NCBI RefSeq assembly: GCF_000300515.1
Contig: NZ_AMSI01000015.1
Span: 1 to 64,000, forward strand
Direction of reading: 5' to 3'
Length of the DNA stretch: 64,000 nt
Source of the DNA: Nitratireductor indicus C115
Lineage (GTDB): Bacteria > Pseudomonadota > Alphaproteobacteria > Rhizobiales > Rhizobiaceae
Positions 241 through 31,173 of the stretch are shown piece by piece. The position numbers and the translations under genes are program-made. Each line of letters starts with the position of its first letter. Position 1 is the first letter of the stretch. The notes beneath the pieces were generated by a model that was not told where the DNA came from, did no database searches, and saw only the letters and a list, made by a program, of their open reading frames with translations.

Positions 241-255
241 TTAACCCATTATTAA
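241..255. promoter_or_regulatory. CtrA box upstream of candidate small RNA
   Basis: The sequence is TTAA, seven bases (CCCATTA), TTAA, an exact match to the full CtrA consensus TTAA-N7-TTAA. It lies 25 bases before a hairpin (280-295) that could start a small RNA ending at the terminator at 350-376. CtrA-activated promoters usually carry this box over the -35 region, which would place a start near 275-280. Binding is inferred from sequence alone. Confidence 0.65.
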
Positions 256-274
256 GCTTTACAGGCGTTTACTG

Positions 275-376
275 TGTTCATCCAGTGATCTGGATTCTTA
301 CCGAGTGGCTGGAGCCATTCTGTTTGACGCCTCCCTGTTTAAACTCCTGAGAGCCGCCTCCGCGGCTCTTTTTTTG
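275..376 (+). ncRNA. Candidate CtrA-controlled small RNA with anti-Shine-Dalgarno loop
   Basis: About 100 bases without a reading frame hold three hairpins in a row: ATCCAG/CTGGAT with a TGAT loop (280-295), a short TGGC/GCCA stem near 306-317, and a strong terminator (350-376). The terminator loop is CTCC, and a free GCCTCCC lies at about 329-335; both are complementary to ribosome binding sites. Such CCUCC motifs are known in alphaproteobacterial trans-acting RNAs (AbcR and suhB/cuckoo types). The CtrA box at 241-255 suits a start near 275. The 5' end is inferred, and family membership cannot be settled by eye. Confidence 0.5.
350..376 (+). terminator. Rho-independent terminator
   Basis: AGAGCCGC (350-357), loop CTCC, GCGGCTCT (362-369), followed by an unbroken T run to 375. 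The stem is a perfect 8 bp. No protein-coding gene lies upstream on this strand, so it must end a non-coding transcript or one entering from outside the window. Confidence 0.85.
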
Positions 377-391
377 GTTCTGTTCGCGATG

Positions 392-406
392 TTAACCCTT
401 TGTTAA
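392..406. promoter_or_regulatory. CtrA box upstream of rcdA
   Basis: TTAA, CCCTTTG, TTAA is a second exact TTAA-N7-TTAA site, about 150 bases before rcdA. In Caulobacter rcdA is part of the CtrA circuit, so a CtrA site here is expected for a conserved feedback loop. The site is seen directly; its use is inferred. Confidence 0.65.
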
Positions 407-541: not shown

Positions 542-1075
542 ATGATTGAAGGCAGGGGCGGGCCTGTAACGATGATCAAGCTTGCCGAACATCGCGTTTT
601 CTCCGATTCCTTCAAGCCGCTCTACAATCAGGGCATGGGGCTTGTGGAGGAGGCCGCCGAGTATCTCGATGGCGATGGCCGCGCTGCGGCCAAGCGGCTG
701 TCGCGGCTCGGTGCGAACCTCTATGCAGCGGAATCGATGCGCCTTACCACGCGGCTCATGCAGCTTGCCTCATGGCTTCTCCTGCAGCGCGCCGCCAATG
801 CTGGCGAGATGACGCGCGAACAGGTTGCGGCGGAAAAATCGAAGGTGCGGCTCGATACATCCTCTCCGCAGGAAGAGGCCGACGGCTGGTTCGACCTGCC
901 GGAGGCTTTTCGCGACCTCGTCGTGCGCTCCCTGCGCCTGCAGGACCTCGTGCGACGGATGGACGAGGAAATCTATGGCTCCGAGCGGGGCGAAGAGGCT
1001 GAACTGGATTTCGGCAGTTCCAACCCCGTCTTTGACCAGATCACGCTTCTCAAGACGGCGTTCGGGCACCGCTGA
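542..1075 (+). CDS. rcdA: RcdA-like DUF1465 protein, CtrA degradation adaptor
   Basis: RcdA is an adaptor that helps deliver CtrA to the ClpXP protease during the alphaproteobacterial cell cycle. The 177-residue product contains the family's conserved core, including GMGLVEEAAEYLDG and SMRLTTRLMQLASWLLLQRA, which I recognise from Caulobacter RcdA. It is a small helical, cytoplasmic protein without a signal peptide. An internal ATG at 572 (MIKLAEHRVF) is also a credible start because homology begins there. A CtrA box at 392-406 lies upstream, fitting regulation by the protein it helps destroy. The neighbour is a convergent permease. Identification as DUF1465 is firm; the ClpXP role in this organism is carried over from Caulobacter. 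Confidence 0.88.
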   Translation: MIEGRGGPVTMIKLAEHRVFSDSFKPLYNQGMGLVEEAAEYLDGDGRAAAKRLSRLGANLYAAESMRLTTRLMQLASWLLLQRAANAGEMTREQVAAEKSKVRLDTSSPQEEADGWFDLPEAFRDLVVRSLRLQDLVRRMDEEIYGSERGEEAELDFGSSNPVFDQITLLKTAFGHR

Positions 1076-29990: not shown

Positions 29991-30992
29991 CTACTCGGTG
30001 GCGATGATCTTGTCGATCGTCGCCTTGTCGTACTGGCCGTAGTATTTCTCATAGGCCGGGGCGAGCGCCTTCTGGAACGCCGCCTTCTGTTCGGCGGTCA
30101 TTTCGCTCACATTCATGCCCTCCTTCTTGAGCTGTTCAACGCCGGAAGTTTCGACATTGTCCACATAGGCACGCATAGCCGCCACGGCTTCCGTCGCAGC
30201 GTCCTTGAATATCGTCTGATCCTCAGGCGACATGCCCTCCCAGAGCTGCTTGGAGACGAGCAGCATGGCCGGCGAATAGACGTGGCCGGACAGGGTCAGA
30301 TATTTCTGAACTTCGGAAAGCTTGGCAGAGGTGATGACGGAGAGCGGGTTCTCCTGCCCGTCGATCGTGCCTTGCTGAAGGGCGCTGATGACCTCAGGCC
30401 AGGCCATGGGCGTGGGGGCCGCGCCCAGCGTTTCGAATGCCGTGATGTGGATGGGATTTTCCATCGTGCGCAGCTTGAGGCCTGCCACGTCTTCCGGCTT
30501 GTCGATCTCGTTGCGGTTGTTCGTGATGTGGCGGAAGCCCTGCTCGCCCCAGGCAAGAGCGACGAGGCCTACATCGTCAAACTTGGCGAGGATGCTCTGG
30601 CCGACTTCGCCGTCCAGCACCTTGCGGGCATGGGTGAGATCGCGGAACAGGAAGGGGATGTCGAAGATGCCGGTTTCCGGCACGAAGTTGCTCAGCGTTC
30701 CGGAGGAAACGATGGTCGCCTCAATGGTGCCGAGCTGGAGCCCTTCGATAACTTCGCGCTCGCCGCCGAGGCCGGACGAGGGGAAGTGACGGAACTTGTA
30801 GCGGCCGTCGCTTTTGGCCTCGACGACCTCCTGCCATTTGTCGGCGGCAACACCGTAGTGCGAGGTCGGCGCGAGCGCATAGCCGATCTTGATTTCCTGC
30901 TGAGCGTTGGCTGCGCCTGCCCAGCCGAATGCGCCCAATGCAACCGCCAATGCGGCGGCGGGGGCGAAATTCCGTAATGCCAGTGCTTTCAT
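29991..30992 (-). CDS. dctP: TRAP transporter solute-binding protein DctP
   Basis: The periplasmic binding protein of the second DctPQM importer. The 333-residue product has a signal peptide ending ANA (about 30) and then QEIKIGYALAPTSHYGVAADKW. The conserved LKLRTMENPIHITAFETLGA segment includes the substrate-carboxylate Arg. An ENPLSV motif is shared with other DctP proteins. It leads the operon dctP-dctQ-dctM. The 181 bases upstream, before the ilvD-type gene on the same strand, hold the promoter and no obvious terminator. Confidence 0.93.
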   Translation of the reverse strand: MKALALRNFAPAAALAVALGAFGWAGAANAQQEIKIGYALAPTSHYGVAADKWQEVVEAKSDGRYKFRHFPSSGLGGEREVIEGLQLGTIEATIVSSGTLSNFVPETGIFDIPFLFRDLTHARKVLDGEVGQSILAKFDDVGLVALAWGEQGFRHITNNRNEIDKPEDVAGLKLRTMENPIHITAFETLGAAPTPMAWPEVISALQQGTIDGQENPLSVITSAKLSEVQKYLTLSGHVYSPAMLLVSKQLWEGMSPEDQTIFKDAATEAVAAMRAYVDNVETSGVEQLKKEGMNVSEMTAEQKAAFQKALAPAYEKYYGQYDKATIDKIIATE

Positions 30993-31173
30993 GAAACCCT
31001 CCCTGATTTCGCAAAATTCATATGTACACTAACGCACCGAAACGGAAACCGGAATCGGTTTTCCAAGTGTCCGATGCGCAGATCCATCACCCTGCGACGT
31101 ACGCTGTGCGCCCGCAGGTTGCAGGCGGGTTGCGTGAGGCCGCAGTGTTTCCTTAGCGTTTGGACCAGCCGCG

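Follow-up and report, generated by a model that had tools for sequence, protein, structure and literature searches.

What does the exact CtrA box near the beginning of a contig of Nitratireductor indicus C115 control: the gene rcdA, which encodes an adaptor for CtrA degradation, or a small RNA (sRNA) lying between the two? The question is raised by a stretch of 64,000 nt (contig NZ_AMSI01000015.1, positions 1 to 64,000 of the forward strand; hereafter the window), the start of which is a contig end. A preliminary description had recognised here a trans-acting riboregulator set by CtrA beside rcdA, and had regarded a CtrA-driven RNA at this place as new. The trans-type sRNA, its anti-Shine-Dalgarno (anti-SD) element and its CtrA-box promoter are retained as readings of the sequence, but the RNA itself belongs to a catalogued family. 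The best explanation of the whole, and one that we consider likely, is a CtrA-activated sRNA of family RF02356 whose core represses mRNAs bearing Shine-Dalgarno (SD) sequences. A CtrA gene is present in the host genome (84% identity with the query). Published work is cited below by PMC identifier.

The CtrA box and the RNA that follows it

The TTAA-N7-TTAA box claimed by the preliminary description was found as an exact match, and a second exact box, absent from that account, lies downstream of the RNA (Table 1). These two are the only ones in the window, against an expectation of 0.01. The pattern TTAAC-N6-TTAA occurs at 13 places in the 4.99-Mb genome, both window boxes included, and is scarcely commoner than its reverse (genome rows 8+8 = 16 and 8+7 = 15, respectively); the argument for the box therefore lies in the pairing at the locus and in conservation, not in the genome count. 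Relative to the predicted RNA start, the full TTAA-N7-TTAA falls in the -35 region, the placement by which membership of the CtrA regulon is judged.

Table 1 Features of the sRNA and rcdA locus in the window
Feature	Position	Strand	Basis or remark
CtrA box TTAACCCATTATTAA	241-255	+	Within the -35 region of the predicted sRNA promoter; roughly -39 to -25, counting from a start at 280
-10-like element TTTACT	268-273	+	TTATnAnT conserved at box +25 to +32 in 194 loci
sRNA gene, predicted transcript, RF02356 (BjrC1505) family	280-375	+	Rfam match, fold, model R1
Hairpin 1 (AUCCAG/CUGGAU)	280-295	+	Fold; covariation, double changes in 4 of 6 pairs
Hairpin 2	303-320	+	Fold; covariation, double changes in 4 of 6 pairs
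Near-invariant core UUUGACGCCUCCCUGUU	323-339	+	Alignment A1, 61 sequences
Intrinsic terminator, 9-bp stem, loop CTCC, T run	349-375	+	Terminator prediction; covariation
Second exact CtrA box	392-406	+	rcdA promoter region; exact match
rcdA, adaptor for CtrA degradation	542-1075	+	ATG at 572 is a possible true start

Folding of 280-375 gives three hairpins and leaves CCUCCC unpaired, at -35.1 kcal/mol (z -4.15; none of 200 shuffles equals it), and this fold and the terminator predicted at 349-370 agree with the three hairpins, perfect CTCC-loop terminator and free CCUCCC described earlier. In alignment A1, the CCUCCC (330-335) is either open or closed into a loop by a weak mini-hairpin (GACG/UGUU), whose four pairs are left open by the single-sequence fold and have no covariation support because they hardly vary. 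An alignment of 61 transcripts without promoter contains double changes in 13 of 24 pairs, against an average of 4.8 for 500 shuffles, none of which attains 13, and this alignment and its covariation bear out the view that hairpins and core bases are kept in relatives. Anti-SD activity had been ascribed to loops in the plural. One exposed element stands, and the terminator loop is rejected as a second, CTCC being found there in 6 of 120 parsable transcripts (201 looked at). Likewise, 69 of 201 transcripts have no open reading frame (ORF) of at least 15 codons over the core, which disposes of a conserved encoded peptide.

The promoter logo described below and the 100-nt size of SmelC671 place the 5' end of the RNA most likely near 280, at hairpin 1. 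A non-coding hairpin RNA does follow the box, as had been perceived, with its start shifted from 260 to near 280; the bases directly after the box are promoter and not RNA.

Family membership, distribution and known relatives

The window RNA matches the full model of RF02356 (BjrC1505, a name reportedly given by Madhugiri in 2012) at 232-375 with 67.9 bits, the Rfam cut-off being 50, and it is the only such match in the host genome. Model positions ~9-23 are the CtrA box, and RF02356 apparently treats promoter DNA as RNA; loci found with it consequently favour boxed copies. A box-free model, R1, built from 61 transcripts without promoter, scores 78.2 bits at 278-375, the window sequence being itself among the 61 members.

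At E ≤0.001, RF02356 was detected in 52 of 61 relatives (44 above cut-off) and, under stricter filters, in 40 of 385 genomes across the class (17 above cut-off), while R1 matched 48 of these 385, some of its matches being mmgR-type RNAs. No RF02356 match was found in 14 control genomes, Caulobacter vibrioides included, and members from Sinorhizobium and Shinella score 27-32 bits with this model, below the cut-off. A blastn search of 256-380 against PLSDB returned no match for plasmid copies; as PLSDB contains Sinorhizobium copies which the search missed, it is too insensitive to count. In a survey of Rhizobiales, an sRNA of the RF02356 family ranked among the most conserved models (PMC3927594).

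The counterpart in Sinorhizobium meliloti is almost certainly Sm84/SmelC671 (SMc06875), on the basis of locus, strand, motif and size, and it shares with Rhizobium etli ReC71 and the window RNA the same sequence, structure, terminator and core, CUCCCUGU. With an above-cut-off family match, the same place before rcdA in strain Ak57 and no difference in the RNA, the window RNA cannot be regarded as new. Sm84/SmelC671 has been detected by Northern blotting and sequencing in strains 1021/2011 as a discrete RNA of ~80-100 nt (PMC2573895, PMC2873474), SmelC671 being sized at ~100 nt (PMC2873474). The DUF1465/rcdA locus of strain Ak57 (CP090106.1) contains a divergent copy of 27 bits, with both boxes exact and the motif CUCCCUGU, between two forward genes and with rcdA downstream. 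The distance from 6S RNA to this copy is 13.0 kb, compared with 14.3 kb in strain 1021 (PMC2873474), and mmgR, tried as another anchor for the position of Sm84 in Ak57, did not turn up in the stretches searched. With the 5' end set 100 nt upstream of the T run, the S. meliloti RNA would begin at the first hairpin and its box would lie between about -38 and -24. CP090106.1 (loci L158 and L155) is titled plasmid pSymB, yet ruvAB, tol, ftsH and 6S RNA are aboard, so that it looks like a chromosome and the title wrong.

Several other alphaproteobacterial RNAs resemble the window RNA in part. The sister family RF00519 (suhB/mmgR) shares the 3' half, GUUU...CCUCCCU...ACUU followed by a GC-rich terminator; membership was rejected, as the match at 307-383 reaches 28 bits, under the 41-bit cut-off. 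Rfam also contains an AbcR model, and a cmscan of 150-560 at E ≤1 listed RF02356 and the sub-threshold RF00519 match only. CcnA of Caulobacter is likewise a cell-cycle non-coding RNA, presumed to be activated by CtrA, with an exposed C-rich loop, but it is encoded at the replication origin and its loop is CCCC (PMC8959179), a motif absent from 280-375 of the window. EcpR1 (SmelC291), a rhizobial cell-cycle sRNA, differs in its loop motif UCCGCCGCAUCU, its location downstream of divK-pleD and its stringent-response regulon (PMC4414408); UCCGCCGCAUCU does not occur in 280-375 and no such family emerged from cmscan, so identity with EcpR1 is discarded. GspR (SmelC775) is an sRNA of the CtrA network in Sinorhizobium and is set aside on its published distribution, which is limited to that genus; its predicted pairing with ctrA runs through SL1 (PMC5928217), whereas pairing of the window RNA with ctrA found no support (see below).

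Conservation of the box and nature of the promoter

A box was counted when at least 7 of the 8 half-site bases were present at a spacing of 7. Such a box lies ~25 nt 5' of hairpin 1 in 82 of 85 non-redundant loci, 45 times exactly, one weak-box locus (L165, 5/8) having been left out beforehand. In the same 85 loci, a spacing of 6 gave 31 boxes at ≥7/8 with 1 exact and a spacing of 8 gave 16 with none exact; spacings 4-11 other than 7 ranged from 10 to 31 and from 0 to 3, respectively. The median distance from box to T run is 119 (quartiles 115-122). The logo of 194 loci, preselected for a box at ≥7/8, reads TTWAC-N6-TTAAG, then the -10-like TTATnAnT at +25 to +32, with the sequence upstream unconserved. 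The loci are relatives and thus non-independent, some even coming from the same species (e.g. L029, of the genus of the window, which is identical from box to core with L106, Nitratireductor soli). Excluded from the transcript set of 202 were L178, L213 and L218 (no anchor), L057, L111 and L212 (no T run) and L165.

Among the matches listed for a 19-nt core pattern alone, 115 loci had enough sequence for the count, and 112 of these carried a box at ≥7/8 no more than 130 nt away; with 30 earlier loci added, the figure is 142 of 145, 5 of 150 loci having been dropped because one flank was too short. The boxes counted for L070 and L110 stand ~45 nt farther upstream than the others. In the sister family RF00519, by comparison, the box reached ≥7/8 in 7 of 26 loci and was exact in none (Fisher p 7e-13), 4 of 30 loci having been dropped for want of a parsable motif. 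Among 16 weak loci found only by R1, the box was present at ≥7/8 in three (L252, L262 and L263); five mmgR-type loci scored 4/8, two others 5/8, and L249, L251 and L253, with rcdA downstream, 6/8. The remaining R1 matches L255, L256 and L257 come from three genomes of a single genus, are almost identical to one another and lack the box (3/8); with their core GUGAAGCCUCCCUGUCAGACUUCAGCC, they are another group of anti-SD RNAs.

This conservation bears on the explanation that survives best beside our own, namely a real anti-SD sRNA in which the box is bound by CtrA but is not the activating element, either because the promoter is an ordinary sigma-70 one or because CtrA merely represses. CtrA sites are indeed capable of repression. 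Moreover, Valverde and colleagues (2008) assigned a sigma-70 promoter to Sm84 and saw the RNA under six stress conditions (PMC2573895). However, a simple consensus scan of 150-620 found no sigma-70-type site, and the box occupies the -35 position, is conserved more strongly than the rest of the promoter and is followed ~11 nt 3' by the -10-like element, as seen in box-selected loci; many RF00519 promoters instead display a TTGAC hexamer at -35. An ordinary or repressed promoter is therefore judged unlikely.

Relationship with rcdA

The gene downstream matches the NCBIfam equivalog ProtaseAdptRcdA with 204.8 bits (cut-off 170), and 3ctw, which is RcdA, is the only solved relative of its product among the matches listed (E 8.8e-27); the RNA was thus rightly described as adjoining the gene for CtrA degradation. 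Same-strand rcdA follows 138 of 150 core-bearing loci, and since 7 of the 12 exceptions have ≤306 nt of sequence downstream, 138 of the 143 with more than 306 nt, all among the matches listed. This association favours a reading of the supposed sRNA as the leader of rcdA, in which the boxed promoter would read into the gene, the terminator would attenuate and the short RNA would be a by-product. The agrobacterial rcdA orthologues fit this reading as well: each of the three lineages has multiple transcription start sites for the gene, and possible CtrA sites lie upstream of it (PMC10469942).

The RNA nevertheless occurs where the gene was not detected. In 60 further loci, which came from the box-containing RF02356 model, rcdA was detected by tblastn in 39 and not found in 21, although divergent copies may have been missed in distant orders. 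Of those 21, 20 keep the box, or 19 of 20 (1.5 kb downstream) without L200, whose contig ends 165 nt past the RNA; in these 19 boxed RNA and core stand with no rcdA detected nearby, as opposed to what a leader would entail, and the second copies in three genomes argue the same way. The latter genomes have two boxed copies each (G053, L160 and L178; G059, L003 and L167; G061, L192 and L208), with rcdA undetected near any of them except L003. Furthermore, the core is conserved far beyond the needs of a leader, the transcript appears to offer no antiterminator pairing, rcdA of Rhizobiaceae often has a second box of its own, and Sm84 is a discrete RNA. A mere leader is accordingly quite improbable.

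An exact second box between RNA and rcdA occurs in 37 of 165 loci among the matches listed (0.2% in shuffles); 25 of the 37 belong to the family of the window, L206 lies outside the order, and the others come from the core-pattern matches listed. On these counts, the site shared across families is that of the sRNA, and the CtrA site here seems to be the RNA's in the first place. A CtrA ChIP site upstream of rcdA is described for S. meliloti in terms that do not single out one of the two boxes, and rcdA mRNA was unchanged upon CtrA depletion (PMC4433202). A CtrA-driven sRNA at this place could account for a binding site upstream of a gene whose mRNA does not respond.

Targets and mode of action

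In the mechanism that we favour, the sRNA would be ~96 nt long, beginning at hairpin 1 near 280, and the CtrA box would replace the -35 element of its promoter; from this placement we infer CtrA binding and its sign, phosphorylated CtrA most likely switching the RNA on. The transcript would stop at the intrinsic terminator and expose CCUCCC inside the near-invariant core of 17 nt; this core most likely base-pairs with SD sequences in several mRNAs and keeps these from being translated. Because CCUCCC complements the SD sequence, translational repression is the natural reading, and MmgR and AbcR are anti-SD RNAs of alphaproteobacteria which act as translational repressors. The RNA is thus probably a trans-acting anti-SD RNA activated by CtrA, and would add post-transcriptional repression to the CtrA regulon.

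The preliminary description had named the leaders of ctrA, gcrA and rcdA for target prediction, and a variant of the mechanism would have the RNA pair with these leaders and feed back on CtrA, as proposed for Caulobacter CcnA, whose loop A the exposed C-rich element resembles (PMC8959179). AGGGG SD sites are common among ctrA start regions. In spite of this, pairing of the core with ctrA leaders gave a mean z of +0.22 (26 of 28 loci) and with gcrA leaders of -0.20 (23 of 30 loci), the 2 and 7 missing loci having been dropped for an unrecognised start; neither exceeds shuffles, and both genes were abandoned as targets. The rcdA leaders lean slightly towards pairing, with a mean z of -0.50 on 82 loci and of -0.32 (s.e. 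0.15) against shuffled leaders on 63 non-redundant loci, stretches inside rcdA serving as control (+0.31). With shuffled cores as the reference, the lean is reduced to -0.20 (s.e. 0.14); the best sites are spread over the interval between -280 and +20, and rcdA is not counted as a target. On these grounds, feedback through the three leaders is very unlikely.

A screen for AACAGGGAGG-ATG in 41 Hyphomicrobiales genomes found 54 sites, 44 of them with an ORF of 60 aa or more. By Pfam tallies and sequences, solute-binding proteins account for 15 of these 44 ORFs with a perfect SD complement, compared with 6 of 30 ORFs (39 sites) for the one-base control AAGAGGGAGG (p 0.29). Neither leader pairing for ctrA, gcrA and rcdA nor the SD screen of 41 genomes established a target. 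In the window, a gene resembling a TRAP-type solute-binding protein (30990-31005, reverse strand) has the SD sequence CAGGGAGG, which perfectly complements CCUCCCUG of the sRNA.

That the invariant core binds a protein (Hfq or a cold-shock protein) or the 30S 3' end, the RNA being a sponge, is highly improbable: the invariance of the whole core does exceed the needs of anti-SD pairing, but sister anti-SD RNAs act by base pairing, as does MmgR.

Conclusions

In the literature searched, the original BjrC1505 description lying outside it, CtrA control of an RF02356 RNA is not reported, and within that compass the earlier claim that a CtrA-driven RNA at this place is unreported holds. Neither a CtrA box nor rcdA, a function or a target is mentioned for SmelC671 and ReC71 in the available parts of these sources. 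The RNA is already known; its CtrA box as a family-wide promoter feature appears to be unreported.

The near-universal CtrA box in the promoter assigns this RNA family to the cell-cycle regulon. CtrA sites that have been attributed to rcdA may in fact act on the RNA. Caution is needed with RF02356, which includes promoter DNA and under-scores members from Sinorhizobium and Shinella. We put forward only tentatively, as somewhat less probable than its opposite, the view that a CtrA-activated anti-SD sRNA belongs to the ancestral cell-cycle control of alphaproteobacteria and predates, in this group, the control of rcdA by CtrA. The CtrA site next to rcdA in Hyphomicrobiales would then be primarily that of the sRNA, and the binding upstream of an unresponsive rcdA in S. 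meliloti would be explained. The family is catalogued with neither regulator nor function assigned in the literature searched and, if driven by CtrA, would represent an overlooked arm of cell-cycle control. CtrA, known as a transcription factor, would thereby gain a standing arm of translational repression.
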